A DNA stretch of 45,584 nt from Nitrosomonadales bacterium (lineage in GTDB: Bacteria; Pseudomonadota; Gammaproteobacteria; Burkholderiales; Gallionellaceae). The stretch is taken from positions 1 to 45,584 of the forward strand of contig JACPVZ010000078.1 in the NCBI GenBank assembly GCA_016197305.1. Reading direction: 5' to 3'. The notes under the pieces are model-generated. The model searched no databases, was not told the DNA's origin, and saw only the letters and a program-made list of their open reading frames with translations. Within the stretch, counting starts at the first letter, position 1, and every line of letters begins with the position of its first letter. Positions 3,241 through 44,501 of the stretch are shown one piece after another. The translations under genes and the position numbers were made by a program.

Positions 3241-3696
3241 ATGCTGATGTACCAGAATCAATGGCGTCATACGGTGTTGCTGGTCGAGAACGACCCGTCC
3301 GAAATCCAGTTGGCACAGCGTGCGGCGGCGGAATGCGGTCACGAATTTTCCCTGGTGGTTTTGCAGGACGCGGACGCGGTGATCGATTGGCTCAACGATG
3401 ATGAGGCGCTGATCCGTAAATTGCCGCACATCATCATGATCAACCTGAGGTTACCCAAGCTGGACGGGCTGGCCGTGTTGCGCAAGCTGCGCATCGCCGT
3501 CGCCACCCGGGCAATCCCGATTCTGGTGTTCTCCGAAGAATATACCCAGGCCGATGTGTTGATGAGCTACCAGATCGGTGCGAACAGCTTCGTTGCCAAG
3601 CCGGGTGATCTGCAACAGTTCATCGAGTTCTTCTGTGAGCAGTTGCCCTACTGGCTGGAGCCCAGGCAGCGCAAGCTGTCGCTTGCCGGGCGCTGA
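3241..3696 (+). CDS. Stand-alone receiver-domain protein lacking the phosphoacceptor Asp
   Basis: This 151-residue single-domain protein has the CheY/Rcp1-like receiver fold: HTVLLVENDPSEIQLA at the N-terminus, IIMINLRLPKLDG in the middle, LVFSEE and FVAKPGDLQQF at the end. The usual phosphorylated Asp (LLDLxLP) is Asn in INLRLP, and the second acidic pocket residue is also Asn (VEND where family members have VEDD/VEDN). The switch Ser and the invariant Lys (AKPG) remain. It is therefore probably a pseudo-receiver working by protein contact rather than phosphotransfer. The ATG follows a good Shine-Dalgarno (AAGGGG); a second ATG at 3247 is possible. No output domain is attached and the partner is unknown. 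The 183 bases between it and alaS hold no other gene. Confidence 0.88.
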   Translation: MLMYQNQWRHTVLLVENDPSEIQLAQRAAAECGHEFSLVVLQDADAVIDWLNDDEALIRKLPHIIMINLRLPKLDGLAVLRKLRIAVATRAIPILVFSEEYTQADVLMSYQIGANSFVAKPGDLQQFIEFFCEQLPYWLEPRQRKLSLAGR

Positions 3697-3774
3697 CTTA
3701 TCGCTCCTTCCCTGTAATTAAACGGCCGTTGCACAGGCCTGCGTCACTGCGCGACGCCACTTCGGCAAGGTTGT

Positions 3775-27043: not shown

Positions 27044-27061
27044 TGCGCTTGGGTGACAAAC

Positions 27062-28731: not shown

Positions 28732-29729
28732 ATGGCTATAGTTCAACATAATCAGCGCCGCCCGGTTCTGCGTTATCTGGCGTGGCTGGCGCTCATACTG
28801 TTGGTCGGGGCTGCGATTTGGTACTACACCCGCCCCGCTCCGCCGCAGGTACAGCTGGTCAGCGTGGAACGCGGCGTCGTCGAGGCGACCGTGAACAATA
28901 CCCGTGCCGGCACCGTCAAGGCGTGCCGCCGTGCCAAGCTGGCGCCGCCCGCCGGGGGGCAGATAAGGAACGCGGTTTCATCTCCACCGAGGGCATGGAT
29001 CAGCGCGCTGCGGCGGCCAAGGTGAGCCGCGCCGGCTGTGAGGCTGCACGCAGCCAGGTCGAACAAGGGAAATCGCGTATCGGCGTTGCGCGTGCAGGAC
29101 TGCAGCGCATGGTGTTGCGCGCACCGTTCGCGGGTGTCGTGGCGGATATCAGCGGCGAGCTGGGCGAATACGCGACGCCTTCGCCGCCCGGGATCCCGAC
29201 GCTGCCCGCGATCGATCTGATCGATGACAGCTGTCTGTTCGTCAGCGCGCCTATCGACGAAGTGGACGCGGCCAACATCAAGGTGGGGCAGGTGGCGCGC
29301 ATCACGCTGGACGCGATCAAAGGGAAGCCCTTCGCAGGCAAGGTCAAACGCATTGCACCCTATGTGCTGGAATTGGAGAAGCAGGCGCGCACCGTCGAGG
29401 TCGAAGTGGAATTCATCGAGGCACCCAGCGCGGAAAATCTGCTGGTCGGTTACAGCGCCGACGTCGAGATCGTTTACGACACCCGCAGCAACGTGCTGCG
29501 TATTCCGATGCAAGCGCTGCTGTCCGGGGAGGGGGTGCAACGATCCAGGCGCGTGCTGTTGCATCGCAGCGATGGCATTTTGGAAGAGCGTGCCGTGACG
29601 ACCGGGCTGGCCAATTGGGAGTACGCCGAGGTCACCGCCGGCTTGAATGAGAACGACCGGATCGTGATGTCGCTCGACCAGGCGGGCGTCAAGGCCGGGG
29701 TGCGCGTGCGGGCGGAAGCGAAGAGATAG
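28732..29729 (+). pseudogene. HlyD/MacA-type efflux adaptor, broken by internal deletion and frameshift
   Basis: The 5' part (28732 to about 28965, frame 1) encodes a membrane anchor and the start of the lipoyl domain, ending KLAPPAGGQI. The rest (about 28965-29729, another frame) resumes at ERGFISTEGMDQRAAAAKV and runs through hairpin, beta-barrel and membrane-proximal domains to a normal C-terminus. Compared with family members, some 55-60 residues between GGQI and ERGF are missing, including most of the lipoyl motif and the first helix of the hairpin, and the frames do not match across the joint. The following ATPase and permease genes are intact and start 8 bases after it. A functional adaptor is unlikely unless the deletion is an assembly fault. 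Confidence 0.85.
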
Positions 29730-29736
29730 CCGCCGC

Positions 29737-30417
29737 ATGATTCAACTGGAGAAGATTGCACGCAGCTTCACCGTCGGCGACCAGCAGGTCGCCGCATTGC
29801 GCGGCATCGATCTGCGTATCGCGGCGGGCGACTATGTCTCCATCATGGGCCCGTCCGGCTCCGGAAAATCCACGCTGCTCAACCTGATCGGCCTGCTGGA
29901 TCGGCCGAGTTCCGGCACTTACAGGCTGGATGGCGGGGATGTCACCGCGCTGGACGATGTGCAGCAGGCGCGGGTGCGCAGCGAGAAGATCGGCTTCGTG
30001 TTCCAGTCATTCCACCTGGTGCCGCGCCTGACCGCCGCGATGAATATCGAGCTGCCGATGATGCTGGCGGGTGTTCCGCCCGAAGAGCGCAAGGAGCGTG
30101 TGGCGAAACTGGTGGAGAACTATGGCCTGAAGGACAGGGCCGATCACAGGCCGGACCAGCTTTCCGGCGGACAGCGCCAGCGTGTCGCGATCGCTCGTGC
30201 CACCAGCATGAACCCGGCTGTGCTGCTGGCCGACGAGCCGACCGGAAATCTGGACCAGGCCACCGGCAAAGAAGTAATGGCACTGCTCGAAAATCTGGTT
30301 GAGCAAAAAGTCACGCTGATACTGGTGACGCACGATCCGTTGCTCGGCGGGCGGGCGGCGCGACAGATCAACATGGTGGATGGGCAGATCGTCAGCGAGA
30401 CGGGAAGAAGTGGATGA
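29737..30417 (+). CDS. ABC transporter ATP-binding protein (MacB/LolD type)
   Basis: The 226-residue ATPase of a type VII (MacB-like) exporter. Walker A GPSGSGKSTLLN (about 39-50), Q-loop FVFQSFHLVP, signature LSGGQRQRVAIARA, Walker B VLLADEPTGNLD and H-loop VTHD are all intact. It overlaps the first permease by ATGA, so the proteins are made together. Such systems use transmembrane mechanical force to move substrates from periplasm outwards with an adaptor and an outer-membrane channel; the substrate is not known. Confidence 0.95.
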   Translation: MIQLEKIARSFTVGDQQVAALRGIDLRIAAGDYVSIMGPSGSGKSTLLNLIGLLDRPSSGTYRLDGGDVTALDDVQQARVRSEKIGFVFQSFHLVPRLTAAMNIELPMMLAGVPPEERKERVAKLVENYGLKDRADHRPDQLSGGQRQRVAIARATSMNPAVLLADEPTGNLDQATGKEVMALLENLVEQKVTLILVTHDPLLGGRAARQINMVDGQIVSETGRSG

Positions 30418-31622
30418 GAGCGGTCGATGTCGCACGGTTCGCCACCGGCAGTCTGCGCGGCAGCCCGGCGCGCACGCTGCTGATGATGCTGGCGATGTCC
30501 ATCGGCGTGGCGGCGGTGGTGGTGCTGACCGCGCTCGGTGAAGGCGCGCGCCGTTATGTGGTCGACCAGTTTTCCTCGCTGGGCACCAACCTGGTGATCG
30601 TGCTGCCGGGGCGCACCGAGACCGCGGGCATAGGCCCCGGCCTGATGTCGGGGCAGACGCCGCGCGATATCACGCTGGACGATGCGGAAGCGCTGTTGCG
30701 CAGCAGCGCCATCAAGCAGATCGCGCCGCTGACGGTCGGTTCCGCCACGCTCTCGCGCGATGCCTTGAACCGCGAAGTGGTGGTGATAGGCTCGACTGCC
30801 AACCTGCTGGAGGTGCGCCACATGAGCATCGGCCTGGGGAAATTCCTGCCGCCGGGCGACATTCACGAGGGCGCTTCGGTGTGCGTGCTCGGCAACCAGA
30901 TGAAGCGTGAACTGTTCGGCAACGAGCAGGCAGTGGGCCAATGGGTGCGCCTGGGCGACCGGCGCTTCCGCGTGATCGGCGTGCTGGCATCGCAAGGCGA
31001 ATCGATGGGGATGCGCACCGACGAACTGGTGATCGTGCCGGTTGCATCCTCGCACCAGCTGTTCAATACGACGGGGTTGTTCCGCGTGCTGATCGAGGCC
31101 AAGAGCCGAGACACCATCGAGCAGGCGGTGCGCGATGCCGAACAGATCATGTTGCAGCGCCACAGCGGCGAGAAGGATGTGACGGTGATCACGCAGGATG
31201 CGGTGCTCGCCACCTTCGACCGGATACTGACCGCGCTGACGATGGCCGTCGGCGGCATCGCCGCAATCAGCCTGGCGGTGGCTGGCGTGCTGATCATGAA
31301 TGTGATGCTGATCGCCGTGGCGCAGCGCGTCAAGGAGATCGGCCTGCTCAAGGCGCTGGGTGCGCCGGGCAGGCGGATACGCAATCTGTTCTTTGCCGAG
31401 GCGGCATTGCTCTCCGGCATCGGCAGCGTGGCCGGGCTGGTGCTGGGTTATGCGGGCAGCTTCATCATCGGGCAGGTCTATCCCAGTCTGCCGGTTTCGC
31501 CGCCGTGGTGGGCGGTGCTTGCGGCCTGCGCCACCGCGCTGGGCACCGGCATCCTGTTCAGCGTGTGGCCGGCGCGGCGCGCGGCCCGGCTCGATCCGGT
31601 CGCGGCATTGGCGGGGCGGTGA
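30414..31622 (+). CDS. ABC transporter permease, FtsX/MacB family (first)
   Basis: A 402-residue permease with one N-terminal helix (TLLMMLAMSIGVAAVVVL), a large periplasmic MacB_PCD domain (about 45-270), and three C-terminal helices of the FtsX domain (MAVGGIAAISLAVAGVLIMN; AALLSGIGSVAGLVLGYAG; VLAACATALGTGILFSV), ending VWPARRAARLDPVAAL. Start overlaps the ATPase stop. It would pair with the second permease at 31767 as a heterodimer. Confidence 0.94.
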   Translation: MRAVDVARFATGSLRGSPARTLLMMLAMSIGVAAVVVLTALGEGARRYVVDQFSSLGTNLVIVLPGRTETAGIGPGLMSGQTPRDITLDDAEALLRSSAIKQIAPLTVGSATLSRDALNREVVVIGSTANLLEVRHMSIGLGKFLPPGDIHEGASVCVLGNQMKRELFGNEQAVGQWVRLGDRRFRVIGVLASQGESMGMRTDELVIVPVASSHQLFNTTGLFRVLIEAKSRDTIEQAVRDAEQIMLQRHSGEKDVTVITQDAVLATFDRILTALTMAVGGIAAISLAVAGVLIMNVMLIAVAQRVKEIGLLKALGAPGRRIRNLFFAEAALLSGIGSVAGLVLGYAGSFIIGQVYPSLPVSPPWWAVLAACATALGTGILFSVWPARRAARLDPVAALAGR

Positions 31623-31647
31623 TGAATACAGACATGACGTTGAATTT

Positions 31648-31761
31648 CGTCATTCCCGCGCAAGCGGGAATCCGGCTGATCGAACCAGCTCCGCGAAGCG
31701 GGACAAAGTCCAGCCGCATGTTGAATGAAAGCACCGGATTCCCGTTTGCGCGGGAATGACG
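31648..31761 (+). repeat. MITE-like element with 28-bp inverted ends
   Basis: The two ends (31648-31675 and 31734-31761) are inverted copies matching at 27 of 28 bases. Each end is itself a hairpin of the type ATTCCC-N8-GGGAAT, like the dRS3-type repeats described in Neisseria. A third hairpin (TCCGC-GAA-GCGGGA, about 31690-31703) lies inside. No target duplication is evident. It fills the gap between the two permease genes and ends 5 bases before the second permease ATG. It encodes nothing. Confidence 0.85.
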
Positions 31762-31766
31762 CGACT

Positions 31767-32966
31767 ATGCTATTACCCGACCTCGTCAAACTCACCAGCT
31801 CCAGTTTCCTTTCATACCGGATGCGCAGCTTCCTGACCGGGCTGGGCATCGCGATCGGCATCACCGCGGTGATCCTGCTGACCTCGATCGGCGAGGGGCT
31901 GCACCAGTTCATGCTGGCCGAGTTTTCGCAGTTCGGCACCAACATCATCGGGATTCAGCCCGGAAAGACGCAGACGCAGGGCGGCAACGTCGGCATCTTC
32001 GGCTCGGTCAGGCCGCTGACGCTGGAGGATGCCGACATTTTGCGCCGTCTGCCTTACGTGGAACATGTCATTCCCAGCCTGATGGGCAATGCCGAGGTGA
32101 AGGCGAATGGCAGGACGCGCCGTACCATGGTGCTGGGCGAAGGGCGCGACTTCGGCAATGCATTCACGATGAAGGCGCGCAGCGGCGGCTTCTGGACGGA
32201 TGAAGACAACGAGCAGGCGCGCGCGCAGGCGGTGATCGGCGCCAAGATACAGCAGGAGCTGTTTGCCGGGATGAATCCGCTGGGACAGTATCTGCGGGTC
32301 GGCGGGCAACGCTACCGCGTGGTCGGTGTGATGGAGTCGAAGGGGCAGATCCTGGGCATGGACATGGACGATGCGGTGTTCATTCCGGCGGCGCGCGCGA
32401 TGGAGCTGTTCAATCGTCCCGGCCTGATGGAGATACACGTCAGTTACCGCGCCGATGTCGACGCGAACACGGTCATCCGCATCCTGACCGAGCGCCTCAA
32501 GGCGCAGCACGGCCGTGAAGATTTCACGATCATCTCGCAGGAAAAGGCGCTGGAGGTGCTCAGCTCGGTGCTGAACATCCTCACCTTCGCGGTCGGCGCG
32601 CTGGGCGGTATCTCGCTGCTGGTCGGGGCGGTCGGGATACTGACGATCATGACGATGGCGGTCACCGAACGCACCGCCGAGATCGGCCTGCTGCGCGCAC
32701 TGGGCGCGCAACAACGCCAGGTGCTGGTGCTGTTCCTCGGCGAGGCGATGTTGCTGTCCGCGCTGGGCGGATTGGCGGGACTGGCGCTCGGCGTGGGCAT
32801 CGCGCAGGGGCTGCATCTGCTGTTCCCGGCGCTGCCGGTGCATACGCCATGGCTGTTCGCGGTTGCCGCCGAACTGACCGCGGTCAGCATCGGCCTGGCG
32901 GCGGGTGTGACACCCGCGCTGCGCGCTGCGCGGCTCGATCCGGTGGAGGCGTTGCATGCCGAATAA
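31767..32966 (+). CDS. ABC transporter permease, FtsX/MacB family (second)
   Basis: A 399-residue permease of the same design as its neighbour: N-terminal helix (MRSFLTGLGIAIGITAVILL), periplasmic MacB_PCD domain, and a C-terminal FtsX domain with three helices, ending ALRAARLDPVEALHAE. The start is ATG at 31767 (LLPDLVKLTSSSFLSYRMRS); an in-frame upstream ATG at 31725 lies inside the repeat element and is not credible. The repeat leaves only 5 bases before the ATG, so no usual Shine-Dalgarno is present other than bases supplied by the repeat end. Confidence 0.93.
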   Translation: MLLPDLVKLTSSSFLSYRMRSFLTGLGIAIGITAVILLTSIGEGLHQFMLAEFSQFGTNIIGIQPGKTQTQGGNVGIFGSVRPLTLEDADILRRLPYVEHVIPSLMGNAEVKANGRTRRTMVLGEGRDFGNAFTMKARSGGFWTDEDNEQARAQAVIGAKIQQELFAGMNPLGQYLRVGGQRYRVVGVMESKGQILGMDMDDAVFIPAARAMELFNRPGLMEIHVSYRADVDANTVIRILTERLKAQHGREDFTIISQEKALEVLSSVLNILTFAVGALGGISLLVGAVGILTIMTMAVTERTAEIGLLRALGAQQRQVLVLFLGEAMLLSALGGLAGLALGVGIAQGLHLLFPALPVHTPWLFAVAAELTAVSIGLAAGVTPALRAARLDPVEALHAE

Positions 32967-33084
32967 GAACTTCGCGGAACAGGCGCCGATCCTAGGGGGG
33001 CGCATGGGAGAGCCTTGCTGAAAGTTTGCAGTAGCTCAGGCGGAAAATTGCTGGTATCGTTCCAAAAAAACTCAGGGAGAGTTT

Positions 33085-33231
33085 ATGGTAGTCGATACCC
33101 GCTTCGAGCGTAGTTGTCTGTGTGACGAATTCATCGAACTCTGGCTGCACGCCTTGCCGCCAGCTCTTCCGGAAAAACTGCCGGCGCAACTCTCCCATCC
33201 ATACGCCTATCGGTTCCTGAAACAAAAATGA
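33085..33231 (+). CDS. Small ORF translationally coupled to the sensor kinase (48 aa)
   Basis: A 48-codon frame with ATG at 33085 and stop at 33229-33231. A strong Shine-Dalgarno (AGGGAGA) stands 6 bases before the ATG, and the stop overlaps the kinase start as ATGA, the same coupling used by later genes of this cluster. The product begins MVVDTRFERSCLCDEF and ends YAYRFLKQK; it has two Cys close together, is mostly acidic and hydrophobic in the first half, and has no membrane helix. I recognise no family. It may be a small regulator of the kinase or a leader peptide. The ribosome site and coupling make translation likely; function is unknown. Confidence 0.6.
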   Translation: MVVDTRFERSCLCDEFIELWLHALPPALPEKLPAQLSHPYAYRFLKQK

Positions 33232-35945
33232 TGCCAGCTGCGATCGCGCCTGTTATCGTCGTCGAAGACGATGCGCAATACGCCGGCTGGCTGCAGAGCG
33301 TGCTGGAAAATGCCGGTTACCGTGTCGAGGTGTATGCCGACACCGGGGCTTTTCGTGACGCCCTGACACATGCGCCGCATGCGGCGCTGGCGGTGATCAT
33401 GGACATGATGTTCTCGGAAGGCGAGGATGCCGGCGCGCGACTCGTCGCCGAGCTGAAGGAGTCGTCTCTCAAGGAGGTGCCGGTGATTTTTGTGTCGGCG
33501 CGGCGGGACATGGAGGCCAGGCTGGCCGCACACCGTGCCGGCGCCGTCAGCTACCTGACCAAACCGGTAGACACCGAACACCTGTTGGGCGTGATAGGCG
33601 GATTTGTGGATCATGAACAAATACAACCCTATCGCGTGCTGCTGGTCGATGACTCCAGGTCGCAGCTCGCTTTTCATGCCCATGTTTTGCGCACCGCCGG
33701 CATGGAGGTGCGCGAAACGGATAACCCGATGCTGGTGTACGACATCCTGGAAGATTTTGCCGCCGAGATAGTGTTGCTGGACATGTACATGCCGCAATGC
33801 AGCGGCGTTGAGCTGGCAAGCATGTTGCGCGACGACCGTCGCTATGAGGGAATTCCGATTGTCTATCTGTCGAGCGAGACGAGCATTGCGCGGCAAGTGC
33901 AGGCGCTGGGCAGCGGAGGCGATCACTTTCTGGTCAAGCCGGCCGATCCGGAGCAGCTGGTTACGGTCGTTCTGAAGCGCGCGCGGCAGTTCCGCCGCGC
34001 CAACGAGATGGAGGAGCAGTTGCGTGCCGCGCAATATGCGCAGGAACGCAAGCGGGAGGCGCTGGACGCGCATGCGATTGTCAGCATCGCGGATGTCGGC
34101 GGCAACATCATTTACGTCAATGACAAATTCTGTCATATCAGCGGCTATACACGCGAGGAGCTGATGGGCAGCAATCACCGCATCATCAAATCCGGTGTCC
34201 ACTCTGCCGGGTTCTACGCGGACATGTGGCATACCATTACCGGTGGTGACATCTGGCAGGGCGAGGTGTGCAACCGGGCCAAGGATGGCAGACTGTACTG
34301 GGTGGAAAGCACCATCGTGCCGTTTCTGGACGAGCACGGATTGCCCTACCAATACATCTCGATGCGCACCGATGTCACCCGGCTCAAGCATTCTGAATCC
34401 GAAAAGGAACAGACGCTGGGGCGCCTCGAAGAAGCGCAGGCACGCGCGCAACTGGGCAACTGGACGGCCGACATGCTGACCGGCGCACTGCACTGGTCGA
34501 AGGAGATATTCCATATCTTCGGCCATGACCCGGACGGTTTCACGCCCAGTGTCGAGGCTTTCCTGCGCGCCATTCACCCCGACGATGTCGAACTGGTCAA
34601 GGAGAGCGAGCGGCGTGCCGCCACCACCGGCCAACACGACGTGGTGCATCGCATCGTCCGCCCCGACGGCGAAATCCGCTATGTGCATGAACTGGCCCGT
34701 GGTGAGTTCGATGCACAGGGGCGGCTGGTCCGGTTGTCCGGCACCGTGCAGGATGTGACCGAGCTGAAAATGGCCGAAATTGAGCTGTTGCAGGCGAAGG
34801 AACAGGCCGAGGCTGCGAGCCGAACCAAGAGCGAGTTCCTGGCCAGCATGAGCCATGAGCTGCGCACCCCGCTGAACGCGATACTGGGCTTCTCGCAGTT
34901 GCTGGACATGGATGCCGATCTGAATCAGGAGAATCGTGGTCATGCACGGGAAATCCAGCGCGCCGGGCAGCATTTGCTGGCACTGGTCAACGACATGATC
35001 GATCTGGCCCGTATCGAGGCAGGCAAGCTCGAATTGTCGATAGAGCCGGTGCAGATCGCCTCGGTGATGGAGGAGAGCCTGTCGATGATGGAATCGCTGG
35101 CCCGGAAATCCGGCATCAGGCTGATCGAGAAACGCTGTGAGAAAGACGACCTCACGGTGCATGCCGATTATGTCCGCCTGCGCCAGGCGCTGTTCAACCT
35201 GCTTTCCAACGCGATCAAGTACAACCGGCCTGAAGGCAGCGTCTGCCTGGCCTGTACTTGCGATGCTGGCCGTTTGCGGATCAGCGTGGCCGATACCGGC
35301 CCCGGCATCCCGCTGGATATGCAGGCGCGCATTTTCAACGCCTTCGACCGGCTGGGCGAGGAACGCGGCGATGTGGAAGGCACCGGCATCGGCCTGGTGA
35401 TCACAAAGCGCATTGTCGAGGCGATGGGCGGACGCGTGGGTTTCGAGAGCACGCCGGGGCAGGGCAGCACTTTCTGGATAGAGCTCGCGCTGGGCAGCGG
35501 CGCAGCCGAGCAGATCGCCGCTCCTGCTGTCGTTGCCGCGCTCACTCAAACCGGTAAGCACAGGATTAAATGCAAGGTGCTGTATGTCGAAGACAACCCG
35601 ATGAACGTCCGCCTGATGCAGCAGATCATGTCTGCCCGCAAGCAGCTGGCATTGATGCTCGCGGATACCGCCGAAAGCGGCATCGCGCATGCGCAAGCCG
35701 AGTTGCCCGGGTTGATCCTGATGGACATCAACCTGCCCGGCATGGATGGCTATGCTGCGCTGGAGGCGCTCAAGGCCGATGCGCGCACGGCGGCGATTCC
35801 GGTCATCGCGATCAGCGCCAATGCGATGAAAGGCGACCGGGAGCGCGGCCTGGAGGCGGGCTTTTGCGAATATCTGATCAAGCCGCTGGATGTGGCGCAG
35901 TTCCTGGCGATACTCGATCAGTTTTTTGATGTCCCCAAGGAGTGA
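33228..35945 (+). CDS. Hybrid sensor histidine kinase REC-REC-PAS-PAS-HK-REC
   Basis: A cytoplasmic kinase of 905 residues with no membrane helix. Domains in order: receiver 1 (8-130, IVVEDDAQ and VIMDMMFSEGEDAG), receiver 2 (136-255, LLVDDSRS and VLLDMYMPQCSG), PAS 1 (about 275-390), PAS 2 (about 400-515, HPDDVELVKESE), HisKA with phospho-His in SMSHELRTPLNAILGFS (about 540-555), HATPase with NLLSNAIKYNRPEG, DTGPGIP and GTGIGLVITK (640-755), and receiver 3 (779-900, LYVEDNPMN and LILMDINLPGMDG). All three receivers keep the Asp. It starts within the small ORF stop and is followed by a binding-protein gene, so it probably belongs to a shared phosphorelay. ATG at 33231 is an alternative. Confidence 0.94.
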   Translation: MMPAAIAPVIVVEDDAQYAGWLQSVLENAGYRVEVYADTGAFRDALTHAPHAALAVIMDMMFSEGEDAGARLVAELKESSLKEVPVIFVSARRDMEARLAAHRAGAVSYLTKPVDTEHLLGVIGGFVDHEQIQPYRVLLVDDSRSQLAFHAHVLRTAGMEVRETDNPMLVYDILEDFAAEIVLLDMYMPQCSGVELASMLRDDRRYEGIPIVYLSSETSIARQVQALGSGGDHFLVKPADPEQLVTVVLKRARQFRRANEMEEQLRAAQYAQERKREALDAHAIVSIADVGGNIIYVNDKFCHISGYTREELMGSNHRIIKSGVHSAGFYADMWHTITGGDIWQGEVCNRAKDGRLYWVESTIVPFLDEHGLPYQYISMRTDVTRLKHSESEKEQTLGRLEEAQARAQLGNWTADMLTGALHWSKEIFHIFGHDPDGFTPSVEAFLRAIHPDDVELVKESERRAATTGQHDVVHRIVRPDGEIRYVHELARGEFDAQGRLVRLSGTVQDVTELKMAEIELLQAKEQAEAASRTKSEFLASMSHELRTPLNAILGFSQLLDMDADLNQENRGHAREIQRAGQHLLALVNDMIDLARIEAGKLELSIEPVQIASVMEESLSMMESLARKSGIRLIEKRCEKDDLTVHADYVRLRQALFNLLSNAIKYNRPEGSVCLACTCDAGRLRISVADTGPGIPLDMQARIFNAFDRLGEERGDVEGTGIGLVITKRIVEAMGGRVGFESTPGQGSTFWIELALGSGAAEQIAAPAVVAALTQTGKHRIKCKVLYVEDNPMNVRLMQQIMSARKQLALMLADTAESGIAHAQAELPGLILMDINLPGMDGYAALEALKADARTAAIPVIAISANAMKGDRERGLEAGFCEYLIKPLDVAQFLAILDQFFDVPKE

Positions 35946-35948
35946 TTG

Positions 35949-37208
35949 ATGCAGGCCGAGCAAGCCCCTGAACATGGCCGAGTGTCGACGAGATTCAAGC
36001 CTGTGCTTCTTGTCGGCGGGCTGCTGGTGGTGTTGGCTGTCTATGGCCTATGGGGGCAGCCGACGGCCAGCAAGCCGGTCCGGATCGGCGTGCTGCACTC
36101 TCTCACCGGCACGATGGCGTCGAGCGAAGCGAAGCTGGTGGATGCGCTTCATCTGGCGATAGAGGAAGCCAATGCCGCGGGCGGCATCAACGGGCGAAAG
36201 ATAGAGGCATCGGTGGTGGATTGCCGCTCCGATGCGGCTTATTGCGCACAGCAGGCCGAGCGTCTGATCGTGGAAGAAAAAGTCAGCGCATTGTTCGGCT
36301 GCTGGACCTCGGTATGCCGCAAGGCCGTTAAACCCATCGTCGAAAAACATCGTCATCTGTTGTTCTACCCGCTGCAGTACGAAGGGCTGGAGCAGTCGCA
36401 CGATATTGTTTACACCGGTGCGGCACCCAACCAGCAGCTGATCCCGATGGTGAACTGGGCGTTGCAGAATTATGGCAAGCGTGCCTACCTGATCGGGTCG
36501 GATTATGTGTTCCCGCGCGTTGCCCACCAGACCGCGAAAAAATTGTTGCTGGCGCATGACGGAAAGCTGGTCGCGGAACGCTACGTGCCGCTGGGAGAGC
36601 GGGATTTCAGCGCGCTGGCACGCGATATCGCGGCGCAACATCCGGATTTTGTGCTGAACACGCTGAACGGCGACAGCAACCAGCATTTTTTCCGCGCCTT
36701 GCACCAGGCGGGAGTGCGTGCCGAGGATATCCCGGTGTTCTCCACCAGCATCGCCGAGACGGAACTGGCGGCGATCGGGCCGGAGCTGGTCGCGGGGCAT
36801 TATGCGGCGTGGAATTATTTCCAGAGCCTGCCGGGTGAAGAGAACCGCGCCTTCGTCGAGGCCTTTCGTCGCCGCTTCGGTCAGCAGCGGGTGCTGGACG
36901 ACCCGATGGAGGCTTCTTACATCGGGATGCGGTTGTGGGTGAATGCGCAGCGCAGCGCGGGCACGCTGGATATGGCGACCGTCAAGATGGCGCTGGGGCA
37001 GCAGACGTTGGCGGCGCCGGAAGGCATCGTGGCGGTGGATGCCGACACGCGGCATCTGTGGAAGCCGGTGCGCATCGGTCGCGCACGCGCCGATGGCCAG
37101 TTCGAGATCGTCTGGGAGTCGGGGCACGGCATCAAGCCAGCCCCCGTTCCATACTTTATTCCCTATGCAGAATTGAAAAACCTGACGGCAAGCGGGAGCG
37201 CGCAATGA
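35949..37208 (+). CDS. UrtA/AmiC-type periplasmic substrate-binding protein without transporter
   Basis: A 419-residue type I periplasmic binding protein close to urea/short-chain amide binders: RIGVLHSLTGTMASSEAKLVDA, LFGCWTSVCRKAVKPIVE, LFYPLQYEGLEQS and GSDYVFPR are family hallmarks. A hydrophobic helix near residues 17-37 anchors or exports it; no lipobox is seen. The ATG at 35949 follows AAGGAG; the TTG at 35946 is less likely. No ABC permease or ATPase genes for uptake follow. It sits between two sensor kinases and overlaps the next one by ATGA, so it is more likely a ligand receptor for the kinase system than a transport protein. Ligand (urea, amide or amino acid) is by resemblance only. 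Confidence 0.9.
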   Translation: MQAEQAPEHGRVSTRFKPVLLVGGLLVVLAVYGLWGQPTASKPVRIGVLHSLTGTMASSEAKLVDALHLAIEEANAAGGINGRKIEASVVDCRSDAAYCAQQAERLIVEEKVSALFGCWTSVCRKAVKPIVEKHRHLLFYPLQYEGLEQSHDIVYTGAAPNQQLIPMVNWALQNYGKRAYLIGSDYVFPRVAHQTAKKLLLAHDGKLVAERYVPLGERDFSALARDIAAQHPDFVLNTLNGDSNQHFFRALHQAGVRAEDIPVFSTSIAETELAAIGPELVAGHYAAWNYFQSLPGEENRAFVEAFRRRFGQQRVLDDPMEASYIGMRLWVNAQRSAGTLDMATVKMALGQQTLAAPEGIVAVDADTRHLWKPVRIGRARADGQFEIVWESGHGIKPAPVPYFIPYAELKNLTASGSAQ

Positions 37209-40200
37209 AAATATCCACGCGTCTGGTTTTGTCGTTCATGCTGGCGGCGGTGCTGCCGCTGGCGTTGTTCAGCTATTTTAATTTGCAGCAGGACGAGGCG
37301 ACGCTGCGCACAGAGGCGCTGGGCAGGATGTCGGATCTGGCCGACAAGAAGACGATGCAGGTCAAGAGCTATCTCGCCGAACGGCTGCAGGATGCAGCGT
37401 TCCTGGCGCGTACCCCGGAGGTGATGGAAGGGCTGGCGAACCTGTCGAGAGAATATCCCAGGCGCAACGCGGCGGGGTATATCCGAGAAAATGACGGTCT
37501 GCACCGGTATTTCAGCCGCTATGTCGAAGAGCGCGCGCTGTTCCATGACATGTTGCTGATCAACCCGCAGGGGGAGATCGTCTATAGCCAGAAGCACGAA
37601 GCCGACTTCGCCACCAACCTGTCCAGCGGGCCGTGGCGCGGTTCGCAATTGGCGCGCGCTTTTCGCGACGCCTGCATGACGCTGGAGCCGGTGTTCTCCG
37701 GTTACGAGAGCTACCAGCCGTCATCCGCCCCGGCGGTGTTCATCGCCGTACCCGTCATGGTGGGTGGGAAGTTCAAGGGGGTGATCGCGGCGCAGCTCGA
37801 CAACAGGCTGTTCTACCAGGTCGCAACCGATGCGACCGGGCTGGGAGTGAGCGGCGAAGCCGCGTTCGCGCAGTGGGATGGCGAGGAGATGCTGTACACC
37901 ACGCCGCTCAAATACCAAGCCGATGCCGCGATGCGACTCCGGATCGGGCAGCAGGAAGCCAGGCCGACACCGATGTTCGGCGCGCTCTCCGGCAATTCCG
38001 GCGCGGGGGTAAACCCCGATTATCGCGGCACGCAAGTGGTGGCCGCATGGCGTTATCTGCCGGAGCTGGATTGGGGGATGGTGGTCAAGATCGACGCGGA
38101 CGAGGTGTTTGCATCCATCTATCGGCAGCGCAGCTTGATGCAGAGCGTATTGTTCGGATTGTTGCTGTTCTCCGGGTTGCTGGGATACCTGTTCGCCCGC
38201 CAGTTCAGCGTGCCGCTGCGGGGGCTGGCGCAGACTGCCGATGCGCTGGCCCAGGGCAACATGGGCGTACGGGCAGACGAATCCGCGACGGGTGAACTGG
38301 GCTTGTTCGCCCGCACCTTCAACCGCATGGCTGACAAGCTGCAAGAGTTGCACCGCACGCAGGAAGCGCGCATCGAGCAGCGTACCGCCGAGCTTGCACA
38401 GCGTGTGCAGGAGTTGCGTGTCAAGGACGAAGCCATCGCCTCCTCGATCAATGCGATCGCGCTTGCCGGACTGGACGGCAAGATTTTTTATGTCAACCGG
38501 GCATTCGTCGAGCTGTGGCGCTTGCCGGCCCCGGAAGACGCCATCGGGCGCTCGCCGGCCGAATTCTGGGATGAGCCGCAACAGGCGCGGGCGGTGATGG
38601 AGGCGCTGCAACAGCAGGGTCGCTGGCGGGGCGAATTAACGGCGCACCTGCATGACGGCACACTGGCGGTGATGCAGTTGTCGGGGTGCATGGTGAGGGA
38701 CGAACATGGTGAGCCGATGTGCATGATGGGCTCGTTCGTCGATGTTACGGAGCGCAAGCGCATCGAACTGGCTTTGCAAGGCGAGCGCGACTTTGCCAAA
38801 CATCTGCTCGAAGCGGCACCGGTGATCATCCTGCTGCTCGATACACGGGGGGCTATCCAGCACGTCAATCCCTATTTCGAGCAGCTTACCGGCTACCGGG
38901 TGGGCGAGGTGACAGGCAAGGAATGGCTGGCCACTTTCCTGCCGGAACGCGACCGGGATCATGTCTGTACGCTGCTCCAGGCGGTATTGAATGAAGCCAG
39001 GATGAGCGGCAATGTCAGCCACATCGTCACGCGCAGCGGCGCGGAGCGCAAGATCGAATGGAACACACAGCCGATGCGCGATGCGCAGGGCAAGGTCACG
39101 GGCATGTTGTGCATAGGCCAAGATGTGACCGAACGCGTGACGAACGAAAACTTGCTGCGTATCAGCGCGGAACGCCTGAACGAAGCGCAGCGCATCGCCC
39201 GGGTGGGCAGCTGGGAGCTGGATCTGGTACGAGGCGCGCTGAGCTGGACGGATGAAATATTCCGCCTGTTCGAGATCGACCAGGGCAAATTTTCCGCAAC
39301 CTATGAGGCCTTTCTCAACGCGATCCATCCCGACGACCGCGACATGGTCAACGAGGCTTATACCCATTCGCTGGAGACCCGCGCACCCTACGAGATCGAG
39401 CACCGCCTGCTGATGAGCGATGGCCGGATCAAGTGGGTCGAGGAGCGCTGCTCGTCGGAGTTTGATGACGATGGCAAGCCGCTGCGCTCGGTCGGCACAG
39501 TGCAGGACATCACCGAGCGCAAGCGCTACGAGGCTGAGCTGATGCGTTTCAACGAGGAGCTGGAGCATCGTGTGGCGCAGCGTACCGCGTTGTTGCAGGC
39601 CGCAAAGGAAGAAGCCGAGGTGGCCAGCCGCAGCAAGAGCCTGTTCCTGACCAGCATGAGTCATGAACTGCGCACCCCGCTCAATGCCATCCTTGGCTAT
39701 GCGCAACTGATGCAGCTCGATAGCGATCTGCCGGCGCATGTGATCGAGAATGCGCGGGAGATCAGGAGCGCCGGGGATTATTTGCTGGTGCTGCTGAACG
39801 ATGTGCTCGATCTGGCGCGCATCGAATCCGGGCGCATGGAGATACAGGTCGAATCTTTCAGGCTGTCCGAGGTGCTGGCCCAGTGTCATGCGCAAAACAG
39901 CCAGGCCGCGCGCGCGCGCAACATTGCGCTGGTGGATCAGCGCGGTTGCGATGCGACCGATGTCGTGGCGGACCGCCGCCGCACGCTGCAAGTATTGAAC
40001 AACCTGGTCTCGAATGCGATCAAGTACAACCGCGAGGGCGGGAGCGTCAGGATATCCTGCGGCGCCGGGATGGAAGGACGCATCAGGATCGCGGTGACGG
40101 ATACCGGAGCAGGCATCGCGCCCAGCCTGCAGGCGCAGCTCTTCCAGCCGTTTAACCGGCTGGGGGCGGAGATGGGCAAGATACAGGGAACCGGTGTCGG

Positions 40201-42349
40201 TCTGGCCATCTCGCGTCGCCTGATCGAAGCGATGGACGGGAGTATCGGTGTGGACAGCGTCCAGGGCGAGGGCAGTACTTTCTGGGTGGAATTGCCGACC
40301 GAGCGACGGGCGGTTGCACGGCATGAGCAGATGCCGCAGCGTGCGGCGCCGAACAAGGTACCGCGGGTGCTGGTGGCCGAGGATTATGCGCCGAACCAGA
40401 ATTTGCTGCGTGTGCAGTTGCAGGCGTTGGGATGCGAGGTGGAGCTTGCATCCGATGGCGCCGAGGCGCTGAGCAAGTATCGCACCGGCCGTTATGACCT
40501 GGTGCTCACCGACCTGAATATGCCGAAGATGGATGGAACGGCATTAGCGATGGCGATACGGGAAGACGAAGCCATCCGTGGCGGACATGTCCCGATCGTC
40601 GCAATCACTGCGGCAGCGGTTTCTTCCGAGCTGAAGCGTTGCCGTGCGGCAGGCATGGACGACACGCTGACCAAGCCGCTCGCGCTGGACAAGCTGCGTG
40701 ACACGCTGTCGCGCTGGCTGGGGGCGGCGGTGGCTCAGGCTGCATTCGATCAGGAGCAGGCCGCCAAGGAAGGCGGCGATGCTGTGCTGAATCTCGATCA
40801 TCTGTACCGTGCGATCGGCCATGCCAATTTCGGCGAGGCGCGCAGTCTGCTGGACACCTTCATCAGCAGCGCTGCCAAGGGATTGGCACAACTGGACAAA
40901 CAACCGGGCGATCTGGTTGCGGTGTCGCACGAGATGCACAGACAGAAATCATCGGCGTTGACCATGGGCGCGCTGCACTATGCCCAGCTGGCGGATGATC
41001 TGGAATGGCGCAGCAAGGGCGGAGACGTTGCCGGCCTGGCAGGTGGCCTGGCAGCGTTGCGCGATGCGCTGGGCCAGATCAAGCTGGCTGTGGAGCATCT
41101 TCAGGAAGACGGCGAGACCGGGCTGCCTCGGGAAATGGATGCCGCGGTGATCAACCACCGTTCCGCATTGGTCGTAGACGACGATCCGGTGGTGTTGCAG
41201 CAGATCACCAGCCTGCTGGGCAGGCTGGGCATGACCAAAGTGCTGGTCGCCGGGAATGGAGCTGAGGCCATCCGGGTGCTGGCCGAGTGCGCAGGCAAGG
41301 TCGAGGTGCTGTTCTGTGACCTGAACATGCCGGAAATGGACGGGGTCGAGCTGATCCGCGAGTTCGGACGGAGGGGGTTTGACGGTGGCGTGATCCTGAT
41401 CAGCGGTGAGGATGAAAAGGTGTTGAGCACGGTTGGCAGGCTGGCCGAGCTGCAGGGGCTGCGTGTATTGGGGCAGTTATGCAAGCCGCTGACACCCGCG
41501 CAGATCGTTCCGATTCTTAACCATCCGGCGACACGCCGCAGAGTACAGCGCCCGGCGCTGGTTCTGCCCGCGGTATCGCCGGATGCAATACGCGCCGGCA
41601 TGGCCGGAAACGAATTCGCGATCTGGTTTCAGCCCAAGGTGGATTCCTCCGGGCTGCGCGCACTCGGGGTCGAGGCGCTGGCGCGCTGGAGGCAACGGGA
41701 TGGGCGTTTCATTTCGCCGGAAATATTTATCACCGTTGCCGAGCAGGAGGGGGTGATCGGCGAGTTGTCGCAGCACCTGCTTGCGCTGGCATTGACCGAG
41801 GGCGCGAGGCTGTTCGAGGCCGGATTCCCGCTGGAGATCGCGGTCAACCTTTCCGGGAGATGGTTGAGCGATTTGAATCTGCCGGACTTTATCCTCAAGC
41901 AAACGCTGGCAGCCCATCTGAAAGTCGATCACGTGATGCTGGAAGTGACCGAAACCGGGGTGATGGAAGACCTGACGACGGCGCTGGATGTGTTGACCCG
42001 GCTGCGCCTGAAGGGGTTCGGGTTGTCGATAGACGATTTCGGCATCGGCTATTCGTCTTTCGAGCAGCTTAGCCGCATTCCCTTCACCGAGATGAAGCTG
42101 GATCGCAGCTTTGTCTCGATGGCCAATCATGACAGGGCGGCGCGGGCTATCCTGGAAGGAAGCATGGACATGGCGCGCAAGCTGGGGCTTTCCACCGTGG
42201 CCGAGGGGGTGGAGACCGAACAGGATCTGGAACTGGTGCGCACGCTGGGTTGCGAACGGGTGCAGGGGTATCTGATTGCCCGGCCCATGCCGGTGGAGGA
42301 GCTGATCGACTGGCTGCGCAGCGAAAAAAATACCGGGATGGAATCATGA
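37205..42349 (+). CDS. Giant hybrid histidine kinase with Hpt and EAL output (dCache-HAMP-PAS3-HK-REC-Hpt-REC-EAL)
   Basis: A 1714-residue membrane protein. Order: helix (about 8-27), periplasmic dCache sensor (30-300), helix (about 313-332), HAMP (about 335-385), three PAS domains (405-518, 530-645, 655-775), HisKA with SMSHELRTPLNAILGYAQ (about 820), HATPase (NNLVSNAIKYNR, GTGVGLAISRR), receiver 1 (1050-1175, LVLTDLNMPKMDG), an Hpt domain (1195-1300) with phospho-His in MHRQKSSALTMGA, receiver 2 (1317-1438, VLFCDLNMPEMDG) and an EAL domain (1462-1708). The EAL set is complete (VEALARW, VNLSG, LEVTETG, IDDFGIGYSS, MKLDRSF, EGVET), so c-di-GMP hydrolysis is expected. The start at 37205 overlaps the binding-protein stop; a frame extension to 36935 lies inside that gene and is rejected. 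Confidence 0.93.
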   Translation: MKISTRLVLSFMLAAVLPLALFSYFNLQQDEATLRTEALGRMSDLADKKTMQVKSYLAERLQDAAFLARTPEVMEGLANLSREYPRRNAAGYIRENDGLHRYFSRYVEERALFHDMLLINPQGEIVYSQKHEADFATNLSSGPWRGSQLARAFRDACMTLEPVFSGYESYQPSSAPAVFIAVPVMVGGKFKGVIAAQLDNRLFYQVATDATGLGVSGEAAFAQWDGEEMLYTTPLKYQADAAMRLRIGQQEARPTPMFGALSGNSGAGVNPDYRGTQVVAAWRYLPELDWGMVVKIDADEVFASIYRQRSLMQSVLFGLLLFSGLLGYLFARQFSVPLRGLAQTADALAQGNMGVRADESATGELGLFARTFNRMADKLQELHRTQEARIEQRTAELAQRVQELRVKDEAIASSINAIALAGLDGKIFYVNRAFVELWRLPAPEDAIGRSPAEFWDEPQQARAVMEALQQQGRWRGELTAHLHDGTLAVMQLSGCMVRDEHGEPMCMMGSFVDVTERKRIELALQGERDFAKHLLEAAPVIILLLDTRGAIQHVNPYFEQLTGYRVGEVTGKEWLATFLPERDRDHVCTLLQAVLNEARMSGNVSHIVTRSGAERKIEWNTQPMRDAQGKVTGMLCIGQDVTERVTNENLLRISAERLNEAQRIARVGSWELDLVRGALSWTDEIFRLFEIDQGKFSATYEAFLNAIHPDDRDMVNEAYTHSLETRAPYEIEHRLLMSDGRIKWVEERCSSEFDDDGKPLRSVGTVQDITERKRYEAELMRFNEELEHRVAQRTALLQAAKEEAEVASRSKSLFLTSMSHELRTPLNAILGYAQLMQLDSDLPAHVIENAREIRSAGDYLLVLLNDVLDLARIESGRMEIQVESFRLSEVLAQCHAQNSQAARARNIALVDQRGCDATDVVADRRRTLQVLNNLVSNAIKYNREGGSVRISCGAGMEGRIRIAVTDTGAGIAPSLQAQLFQPFNRLGAEMGKIQGTGVGLAISRRLIEAMDGSIGVDSVQGEGSTFWVELPTERRAVARHEQMPQRAAPNKVPRVLVAEDYAPNQNLLRVQLQALGCEVELASDGAEALSKYRTGRYDLVLTDLNMPKMDGTALAMAIREDEAIRGGHVPIVAITAAAVSSELKRCRAAGMDDTLTKPLALDKLRDTLSRWLGAAVAQAAFDQEQAAKEGGDAVLNLDHLYRAIGHANFGEARSLLDTFISSAAKGLAQLDKQPGDLVAVSHEMHRQKSSALTMGALHYAQLADDLEWRSKGGDVAGLAGGLAALRDALGQIKLAVEHLQEDGETGLPREMDAAVINHRSALVVDDDPVVLQQITSLLGRLGMTKVLVAGNGAEAIRVLAECAGKVEVLFCDLNMPEMDGVELIREFGRRGFDGGVILISGEDEKVLSTVGRLAELQGLRVLGQLCKPLTPAQIVPILNHPATRRRVQRPALVLPAVSPDAIRAGMAGNEFAIWFQPKVDSSGLRALGVEALARWRQRDGRFISPEIFITVAEQEGVIGELSQHLLALALTEGARLFEAGFPLEIAVNLSGRWLSDLNLPDFILKQTLAAHLKVDHVMLEVTETGVMEDLTTALDVLTRLRLKGFGLSIDDFGIGYSSFEQLSRIPFTEMKLDRSFVSMANHDRAARAILEGSMDMARKLGLSTVAEGVETEQDLELVRTLGCERVQGYLIARPMPVEELIDWLRSEKNTGMES

Positions 42350-43533
42350 TGGAAGACACAGTAAAACAGCAGCAGTCAGGCAATGCCGCGCTCAGGATAT
42401 TGGTGGTGGACGATACGACGGCCAACCTGAATCTGCTGCGTGCAGCGCTGACCAAGGTGGGACATAGCGTGATTACCGCGACCAGCGGCGAGGAGGGGCT
42501 GCGGTTGTTCGCCGAACAGCAGCCGGACTTGGTGTTGATGGATGTGATGATGCCGGGCATCGGCGGCATCGAAGCCACCAGGCGGATACGTGCCCAACAT
42601 CCCCTGCATTGGGTGCCCATCATTTTCATCAGCGCGCTCGATCAGCTCGATGACATGGTACGAGGCCTGGAGGCGGGAGGCGATGATTACCTGGCCAAGC
42701 CGGTCGATTTGAAGTTGTTGATGGCGAAGATCAGGGCGATGCAGCGTATCTCGGTGCTGGAACGCAGCCTGAGCGAGGCCAACGCAGAGCTCAGCGTCTA
42801 CCATGAGGCCTCCGAGCGCGATCTGGATATGGCGCGCGAGCTGATGGAGCGCGTGATGACGGGATCTTCGATGCAGGTAAGGGGCATCGAGTCCTGGGTG
42901 CAGCCGACCACGAACCTGAGCGGCGATATGGTGATTACCCAGAGATATCTTGCCGACCGCGACTATATGCTATGCGCGGACGCGATGGGACATGGCTTGC
43001 CTGCCGCGCTGCCGCTGATGCCGCTGGCGCAGGTATTCGCCGCGATGACGCAAAAAGGATTTACCGTGTCGGCAATCGCACGGGAAATGAACGTGCGCCT
43101 GAGGAATCTGCTGCCGGTCGGAAATTTTGTCGCGGTCACGCTGTTGAGCGTGGATCGAGCCAACCGGGTCATGGAGCTCTGGAACGGCGGCAGTCCGGAC
43201 GCACTGTTGCTGGATGCCGGCGGCAACGTGGTGCGCCGGTTAAAGTCGCGTCATCCGGCCATCGGCGTGCTGAATGCGAATGAATTCGATGCCAGCACCG
43301 AGACGTTGCAATGGAACGGGGAAAGCTGGCTGATGTGCCATACCGACGGGCTCACCGATGCGTCCAATGCCCAAGGTGAAGAATTTGGCATGGCGCGCGT
43401 CCTCGCCTCGTTGCAGGGCGGCGATCCATTCCAGTCGCTGCGGCGGGCTGTCACCGGGCACCTCGACGGGCATGCGGCACACGATGATATTTCGCTCGTG
43501 GCCGTTAGCCTGGACGGTGCGGAATGCGTTTAA
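42346..43533 (+). CDS. Receiver-SpoIIE/PP2C phosphatase (RsbU-like response regulator)
   Basis: A 395-residue response regulator. Residues 15-130 form a receiver (ILVVDDTTANLNLL, LVLMDVMMPGIGG, YLAKPVD), then a coiled linker, then a SpoIIE-type PP2C Ser/Thr phosphatase (170-390) with the metal residues in NLSGDMV, CADAMGHGLPAAL, HTDGLTDA and HDDISLV. Such proteins usually dephosphorylate a STAS anti-sigma antagonist, but no STAS or anti-sigma kinase gene lies in this window. The start overlaps the preceding stop as ATGA; an extension to 42250 is rejected. It is the last gene of the signalling cluster. The 128 bases after it hold only a short hairpin (43571-43583) without a T-run. Confidence 0.94.
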   Translation: MMEDTVKQQQSGNAALRILVVDDTTANLNLLRAALTKVGHSVITATSGEEGLRLFAEQQPDLVLMDVMMPGIGGIEATRRIRAQHPLHWVPIIFISALDQLDDMVRGLEAGGDDYLAKPVDLKLLMAKIRAMQRISVLERSLSEANAELSVYHEASERDLDMARELMERVMTGSSMQVRGIESWVQPTTNLSGDMVITQRYLADRDYMLCADAMGHGLPAALPLMPLAQVFAAMTQKGFTVSAIAREMNVRLRNLLPVGNFVAVTLLSVDRANRVMELWNGGSPDALLLDAGGNVVRRLKSRHPAIGVLNANEFDASTETLQWNGESWLMCHTDGLTDASNAQGEEFGMARVLASLQGGDPFQSLRRAVTGHLDGHAAHDDISLVAVSLDGAECV

Positions 43534-43661: not shown

Positions 43662-44501
43662 CTACTGCCGGGGCGACAGTCTCAGGCTGAGCACGCCGCC
43701 GGTGAGGATCAGTCCTATTCCGGCCCAGCCGCTCAACGGCAGCGCTTCATTCCACAGCAGCATGCCGAACAGGCTGGCGAACACCACGGTGCTGAACGAC
43801 AGGCTGCCGGCCACCAGGGTCTTGCCGGTGCGGTAGGCACGGGTCATCGCCAATTGCGCCAGCGTCGCGCTGCCGGCCAGACCGAGCAGGATAGACAGGC
43901 CGGTGGCGCTGATCGCATGGATTGTGTCGAACAGCATCAGCACGCCGCTGATCAGCGATGAGATCAGGCTGAAGTAGAACACCACGCGCCATTCCGGTTC
44001 TCCCAGCACGCCGAGCTGGCGCACGTTCAGCATCGCGATGCCGGCCAGGAAGCCGGAGATCAGCCCGAGCACGCCGGGGATCAACTGGTCGCGTTCCAGC
44101 GTCGGATGCAGCAACAGTACGACGCCGACGAAGGCCAGCACGATCGCGAACACCAGCGGCGCATGGAAACGTTCCTTGAGCACCAGCATCGTCAGCAGCG
44201 TGAGGAACAGCGGCGAGGTGTAGTTCAGCGTGACCGCGCTGGCCAGCGGCAGCACGGTGATGCAATAAAAGAACAGCAGCAGTGCGATGGTGCCGGAAAG
44301 GCCGCGCCACAGGTGGCCGCTCAGGTGCGCGGTGCGCAATGAGCCGCGTTGCTGGCGGGTGAGCGCATAGACCATCAGCAGGCCGAAGAAGGAGCGGTAG
44401 AACACCAGTTCGAGATTGGTGAAATACGCCGCGCCGAGTTTGACGAACACGCCCATGCAGCCGAACAGCAGGCCGGCGACCAGCATCCACAGCGCGCCCA
44501 T
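43662..44501 (-). CDS. DMT-superfamily (EamA) transporter
   Basis: An inner-membrane protein of 279 residues with ten hydrophobic helices in two EamA repeats (first ALWMLVAGLLFGCMGVFVKL to VGVVLLLHP; second GVLGLISGFLAGIAMLN to LILTGGVLSLRL). Relatives export amino acids, metabolites or drugs; substrate unknown. The ATG at 44501 lies only 7 bases from the end of the second repeat element, which replaces the native upstream region. It converges with the phosphatase gene. Confidence 0.9.
   Translation of the reverse strand: MGALWMLVAGLLFGCMGVFVKLGAAYFTNLELVFYRSFFGLLMVYALTRQQRGSLRTAHLSGHLWRGLSGTIALLLFFYCITVLPLASAVTLNYTSPLFLTLLTMLVLKERFHAPLVFAIVLAFVGVVLLLHPTLERDQLIPGVLGLISGFLAGIAMLNVRQLGVLGEPEWRVVFYFSLISSLISGVLMLFDTIHAISATGLSILLGLAGSATLAQLAMTRAYRTGKTLVAGSLSFSTVVFASLFGMLLWNEALPLSGWAGIGLILTGGVLSLRLSPRQ

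Follow-up and report, generated by a model that had tools for sequence, protein, structure and literature searches.

A binding protein with a urea-type pocket and a mosaic hybrid kinase in a candidate c-di-GMP phosphorelay of a Gallionellaceae genome

Control of c-di-GMP by a periplasmic binding protein is described for the NspS-MbaA system of Vibrio cholerae, in which the ligand state of a polyamine-binding protein controls the membrane receptor that governs the messenger (PMC8967002). In Pseudomonas aeruginosa, the phosphorelay sensors of the PvrSR/RcsCB systems and the PvrR phosphodiesterase are described as controlling biofilm formation and dispersal (PMC3842833), and the HptB-HsbR-HsbA-HsbD pathway as joining a phosphorelay to both a partner switch and c-di-GMP (PMC5085249, PMC6482189). 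For Dechloromonas aromatica, a region for urea transport and nitrogen fixation is described in which an UrtA gene has genes for a histidine kinase and for a CheY-like receiver close by. A binding protein gates a hybrid kinase in LuxP-LuxQ and in TorT-TorS, and the HsbR/CrsR partner switch employs a REC-PP2C protein with an RsbW-type kinase domain.

The window analyzed here is the entire contig C46, 45,584 nucleotides long, of a draft genome from the Gallionellaceae (1,990,822 bases in 169 contigs, 79.7% complete, 3.7% contamination). Positions 33085-43533 hold a tight co-directional cluster on the plus strand, made up of a 48-codon ORF, a hybrid kinase (HK1), a binding protein (SBP), an HK2-REC-EAL fusion and a REC-PP2C protein. 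Its features, and the gene that bounds it downstream, are as follows.

33085..33231, plus strand: orf48, 48 aa; AGGGAG, a good Shine-Dalgarno-like match, precedes the ATG; ATGA overlap into the HK1 gene
33228/33231..35945, plus strand: HK1 hybrid kinase, 904/905 aa; REC-REC-PAS-PAS-HisKA-HATPase-REC by Pfam
35949..37208, plus strand: SBP, UrtA/AmiC-type binding protein, 419 aa; N-terminal hydrophobic anchor-like segment; nine of nine urea-pocket residues
37205..42349, plus strand: HK2, whole ORF, 1714 aa; dCache-HAMP-PAS3-HisKA-HATPase-REC-Hpt-REC-EAL
37205..38344, plus strand: HK2 input half; dCache at aa 34-294 and HAMP at aa 329-381; type of the same-genus GGDEF-EAL receptors
38345..42349, plus strand: HK2 output half; PAS-PAS-PAS-HisKA-HATPase-REC-Hpt-REC-EAL; G007 type from kinase core to EAL
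42346/42349..43533, plus strand: REC-SpoIIE (PP2C) phosphatase, 394/395 aa, by Pfam; without an RsbW kinase domain
43662..44501, minus strand: membrane-protein gene, the first after the cluster, whose product we take to be EamA-like

An earlier note on this DNA had reported ATGA overlaps at three junctions and a 3-base gap at a fourth, and these were found (at 33228, 37205 and 42346, and behind 35945). Its domain tally also agrees with Pfam, which places six Response_reg stretches (3+2+1), PAS folds at five places (2+3), two HisKA/HATPase cores and single EAL, SpoIIE, periplasmic-binding, dCache and HAMP domains in the cluster, with the Hpt match below the cut-off; no DNA-binding domain is among the Pfam families listed, in line with the lack of a DNA-binding output stated there. 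The cluster itself exists, with four protein genes rather than the five announced, unless the doubtful orf48 is counted, and the EAL phosphodiesterase that had been listed as a gene of its own is the C-terminus of HK2, with no stop between kinase and EAL. The gene overlaps suggest co-translation, and the fixed-ratio synthesis read into them goes further than they do. Orf48 belongs to no Pfam or NCBIfam family, has only chance-level matches among the relatives' loci compared, and shows an atypical GC3 of 0.57 vs 0.75-0.87 for the genes of the cluster and six further genes of the window; it was therefore dropped as a firm gene and may be a leader peptide or a chance ORF. A scan for promoters and terminators returned as many sites as shuffled sequence and no promoter-like site on the plus strand, and no Rfam family was found in 32900-33300. 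Elsewhere, the window encodes a dCache-GGDEF protein (27053-28633, 526 aa) upstream of an exporter set of the HlyD/MacB type (28782-32966), a single-domain receiver adjoining an opposite-strand EAL-HDOD protein (3241-5040), and a protein with an adenylate/guanylate cyclase catalytic domain (PF00211; 8900-10243).

As in NspS-MbaA, the binding-protein gene of the window adjoins and overlaps the receptor gene (ATGA at 37205). However, NspS binds polyamines, whereas the window SBP has an UrtA-type fold and a urea-type pocket; MbaA contains GGDEF and EAL directly, whereas the window receptor has a kinase-REC-Hpt-REC relay and no GGDEF. LuxP-LuxQ and TorT-TorS likewise have a binding protein gating a hybrid kinase, but belong to other binding-protein families and have other outputs. 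The locus shares phosphorelay sensors and a phosphodiesterase with PvrSR/RcsCB, although its REC-EAL is fused to the kinase, and the abstract of PMC3842833 mentions no binding protein for that system; the score against the PvrR family NF052596 is 304.9 bits, below the cut-off of 580. Unlike in the HptB-HsbR-HsbA-HsbD pathway, the window PP2C has no RsbW-type kinase domain, no STAS gene adjoins it, and the messenger enzyme is an EAL protein rather than a cyclase. With the UrtABCDE urea transporter, as described in PMC10392092, the SBP shares its family and its pocket residues; in contrast, no permease or ATPase gene adjoins it, its neighbors being the two kinases, with the receptor coming next. 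Our literature search, which covered open-access papers, found no report of an SBP-receptor pairing of this kind.

We consider it somewhat better than an even bet that the cluster forms a relay from an extracellular ligand to c-di-GMP with a second, Ser/Thr branch, and that its sensor cassette was swapped into a relay of the type found in G007, a relative from another genus. Urea or a small urea-like amide would bind the anchored UrtA-type SBP in the periplasm, and the SBP, whether loaded or empty, would dock on the dCache domain of HK2, with the signal crossing the membrane via HAMP. HK2 would then autophosphorylate and pass the phosphate to its first REC and on to its Hpt, from which it could reach two receivers, the fused one that gates the EAL phosphodiesterase and the one on the PP2C phosphatase. 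HK1, with its PAS sensors and terminal REC, may feed into the same Hpt. The sequence itself shows the anatomy, the conserved order, the pairing of SBP and receptor, the pocket residues and the mosaic, whereas we infer the ligand, the docking, the direction of each of these transfers, the sign of control and the target of the phosphatase. In the window lineage, the SBP and dCache-HAMP cassette would have taken the place of the input half in a phosphorelay of the G007 type, with the join near the HAMP end.

The pairing of SBP and receptor is widespread. At a threshold of E<=1e-90, the SBP gave 47 matches in 45 of 150 family genomes, and the neighborhoods of all 47 were inspected, with the interrupted receptor frames of G134 and G022 counted by domain. 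A dCache receptor adjoins the SBP in 46 of them. The receptor contains GGDEF in 38 and EAL as well in 37, the contig ending in the remaining one (G128); these 37 were read as GGDEF-EAL by domain comparison, with three confirmed by Pfam, and Pfam scans of five receptors plus one neighboring REC-EAL gene bear out the domain readings. Seven receptors are of the histidine-kinase type, and three of their loci include EAL, as a fused REC-EAL (the window and G007) or as a separate REC-EAL gene (G047). At three others, G056 (first copy), G062 and G064, single-sequence domain queries found no c-di-GMP domain, and these three of seven kinase-type loci count against a c-di-GMP relay. Three of the 47 matches are not judgeable: G039, where the kinase is cut by the contig end; G019, cut after dCache; and G073, with no dCache. 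In total, of the 44 judgeable pairs in the family, 41 end in a c-di-GMP domain, mostly by the direct GGDEF-EAL route, which gives the c-di-GMP branch independent support. As a control, GGDEF or EAL occurs in 7 of 290 other ORFs of at least 150 aa at 28 of these loci, ORFs chosen by length and some of them surely not genes.

Beyond the family, an order-level search recovered the SBP in 10 of 300 genomes. Seven of these lie outside the family, and at all seven loci a dCache adjoins the SBP and GGDEF or EAL is found in the receptor or an adjoining gene (upstream in G275). At class level the SBP was matched in 70 of 369 genomes; in 5 of the 29 loci examined (L247-L275) a dCache stands directly downstream, with SBP identities of 44-53%, and some of the remaining 24 look like transporter-type UrtA. 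The best reading of these neighborhoods is that SBP plus dCache-HAMP constitutes a portable sensor, similar to NspS-MbaA in logic, that would usually drive a GGDEF-EAL protein directly. The GGDEF-EAL receptors of the family are closer analogues of NspS-MbaA than the window receptor is.

The relay itself is conserved in fewer genomes. PP2C orthologues (E<=1e-92) occur in 5 of 158 family genomes, the source genome included, and the complete cluster in 3. The gene order given in the earlier note recurs in G007 and G017, both of another genus: HK1, SBP, HK2-REC-Hpt-REC-EAL and PP2C follow one another, EAL fusion included, with one extra hybrid kinase in each between HK1 and SBP. The SBP/HK2 junction is ATGA in both, and the HK2/PP2C junction is ATGA in G007 and a 1-base overlap in G017, whose contig ends inside HK1 with the cluster otherwise kept within its reach. 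The G017 SBP (L035 6044-6691) is 215 aa long, its middle, including the pocket, lost in frame, with open neighbors. In G007 the stretch between HK1 and SBP also holds a phosphonate-type binding protein (PF12974), and a HAMP-PAS hybrid kinase comes directly after it, which makes a second binding-protein/kinase pair within the cluster (L034 1653-4775). The multistep-phosphorelay set of HisKA, REC, Hpt and terminal REC, with its phospho-residues, is present in the HK2 proteins of the window, G007 and G017, and all three keep the Hpt histidine (MHxQKSSA) and the EAL motif residues, the catalytic and phosphoacceptor meanings of these motifs being those we presume. By Pfam (cut-off 24.6 bits), the Hpt scores 22.6 in the window and 23.8 in G017, both below, and 26.3 in G007, above. 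HK2 contains EAL and no GGDEF, and the EAL stands behind the phosphorelay; HK1, in which no membrane domain was found, ends in a REC without an Hpt, leaving HK2 with the only Hpt of the cluster. Because the order is conserved, the sole Hpt sits on HK2 and the RECs keep their signature residues, the simplest reading is a single relay that serves two outputs. The single path with two outputs proposed in the earlier note holds to that extent: its c-di-GMP branch is backed by the 41 of 44 loci above, and its Ser/Thr branch by a PP2C present in 5 of 158 genomes.

That rarity, set against a sensor pair in 45 of 150 genomes, bears on a rival reading in which the EAL branch is the real, conserved output and the PP2C is a loosely attached rider on a partner system of its own, with no split path. 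In G136, of the same genus as the window, the cluster is reduced to a 112-aa EAL end and an intact PP2C of 66% identity (L033 11137-12656); the EAL piece is 70-72% identical to the window across 93-105 aligned residues and takes an unsupported position in the EAL tree, and an SBP-dCache-GGDEF-EAL pair lies elsewhere in the genome (L201). G106 has a distant PP2C (46%) in a different gene setting and was rejected as a member of the module on both grounds. These two settings indicate that the PP2C can stand without the relay. A profile search of contigs with the PP2C alignment gave, among the matches listed (80 of 576 loci), mostly the receiver part alone and was for that reason left out of the counts. 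Against a mere rider, the PP2C gene overlaps the HK2-EAL gene in each of the three full clusters, and the phosphoacceptor site of its REC is preserved, the PP2C and receiver residues being invariant in four proteins. We regard the rider as unlikely, if a contender, and continue to prefer the two-output relay. A possible target for the phosphatase is found on contig C119 of the source genome, where a gene that we take to be CheB-like, a STAS protein (103 aa, YLDSSALG) and a REC-SpoIIE-HATPase_c_2 protein stand in a row (L037, 6345-9504) that looks like an HsbA/HsbR-like partner switch. The cluster itself contains no STAS; the genome has three STAS matches, one of them beside this REC-SpoIIE-HATPase_c_2 paralogue, and by analogy with HsbA-HsbR that STAS protein may be the one on which the PP2C acts.

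The SBP belongs to the Peripla_BP_5 / UrtA-like proteins and scores 452.2 bits against the UrtA family of NCBIfam (TIGR03407), below the cut-off of 492.75. Nine residues are described around urea in UrtA: Trp120, Ser122, Tyr141, Gln144, Glu146, Tyr190, Phe192, Asn246 and Ser274 (PMC10392092). Placed through alignment with 8hic, using a numbering offset of our own, all nine are intact in the window SBP and in 47 of 61 aligned SBP rows; of the other 14, G017 is without the region and 13 deviate at one to three of the nine positions. Urease alpha turned up in 2 of the 12 genomes searched for it and not in the incomplete source genome, in which UrtB gave three weaker matches and none above the cut-off. 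The pocket is thus kept, yet the UrtA score falls short of the family cut-off, no transporter genes adjoin, and urease and UrtB are scarce or weak, a combination that favors a signaling role for urea or a near analogue. The most likely ligand is urea or a small urea-like amide.

The same low UrtA score, and the same urease and UrtB results, could also mean that the pocket has drifted and that the SBP senses some other small amide or metabolite. AmiC, an amide sensor, is among the relatives of the SBP, which adds to this case. The nine pocket residues, conserved in the window and complete in 47 of 61 rows, speak against drift, and we think a ligand other than urea improbable, while giving it real weight; urea or a urea-like amide remains the ligand assumed below.

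The origin of HK2 was traced by comparing it piecewise with 47 receptors. The dCache piece is closest to G128 (69%; cut after GGDEF) and only 39% identical to G007, which ranks 39 of 47. From the kinase core onward, G007 is nearest throughout: 65% for the core (rank 1 of 12), 54% for the first REC (1 of 12), 48% for the Hpt (1 of 2), 63% for the second REC (1 of 9) and 74% for EAL (1 of 36), where the next receptor beyond G007 and G017 reaches 36%. The PAS pieces are mixed, the first (with HAMP) nearest G163 and then G141, the others nearest G386 and then G007. Identity profiles of G128 and G139 cross that of G007 at about aa 380-400, the end of HAMP. The border is unequally sharp between relatives, because the first PAS is nearest G163 and the GGDEF-EAL receptor G141 stays 50-65% similar until about aa 500. 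HK2 is, on these comparisons, a mosaic of a same-genus GGDEF-EAL-type input up to about the HAMP end and a G007-type output from kinase core to EAL. This origin, like the urea-type pocket and the wider sensor family, had been overlooked in the earlier note.

Phylogenies agree with the piecewise comparison. In the dCache tree (48 rows), the window falls in a starred set of 17 together with 16 GGDEF-EAL receptors, and an AU test rejects window, G007 and G017 as one dCache clade (p 1.5e-48, 48 rows); the grouping of window and G007 is likewise rejected for the SBP (p 6.5e-4, 53 rows). Output type, kinase or GGDEF-EAL, switches at least five times on the dCache tree and at least four times on the SBP tree, counting starred branches alone and with the cut G019 labelled GGDEF-EAL in the latter. 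Each of the four HK1 pieces, compared with 274 loci, has its best match in G007 or G017. The exchange therefore has a border on either side and extends from the SBP up to and including HAMP. Since the dCache tree places G007 and G017 among other kinase-type receptors, the window is the likelier recombinant, a direction that tree position and parsimony suggest.

A mosaic in a draft genome of 169 contigs could also be a misassembly, a same-genus sensor pair having been joined to a G007-like cluster. Several same-genus genomes have the SBP-GGDEF-EAL pair between an MDRREA gene and an lplT-like gene; on contig C59 of the source genome (L244 4102-4159) these two genes are less than 60 bp apart and the pair is absent, so that this site is empty. 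Both junctions are nonetheless in frame, one of them at a domain boundary, and two junctions would be needed, because HK1 upstream is also nearest G007/G017. The GC of the cluster pieces is alike (0.61-0.62), though the GC3 of dCache-HAMP is slightly higher, 0.81 vs 0.75-0.77. An artefact appears quite improbable to us, and recombination is the reading retained. That the cluster is a decaying remnant without present function is very hard to credit: it lies in pieces in G136 and its SBP is internally shortened in G017, but the ORFs of the window are all open and their catalytic and phosphoacceptor motifs, with the meanings we assume for them, intact. The weak Hpt match, the pocket loss in G017, the mixed PAS region and the rarity of the PP2C branch stand as counterpoints to the relay reading.

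The genome of Gallionella ES-2 is described as holding 46 sensory genes of the GGDEF/EAL type (PMC3770913), and the family is rich in such proteins. Within this setting, the kind of each part of the cluster is already known and the logic of the pairing is that of NspS-MbaA; the new elements are the use of a urea-type pocket in this capacity, outputs that were exchanged repeatedly, and a naturally chimeric receptor for which both parental types are available. Fusing receptors at HAMP is a classic way to build chimeras in the laboratory. A natural chimera whose binding protein moved along with the receptor half is evidence that the two work as a single functional unit, and together with relatives of both parents it forms a ready set for testing HAMP signaling to unlike outputs. 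It also brings a predicted ligand, urea, to a class of c-di-GMP receptors whose SBP occurs in 45 of 150 family genomes. The outputs paired with the sensor are GGDEF-EAL, kinase plus REC-EAL, and kinase-Hpt-EAL with a phosphatase. We therefore offer, tentatively and at somewhat less than even confidence, the view that extracellular urea may be a signal rather than food for these probable iron oxidizers, that SBP and dCache-HAMP would have been re-plugged near the HAMP end into different c-di-GMP outputs, and that the window may hold a natural chimeric receptor whose sensor and co-receptor moved together.
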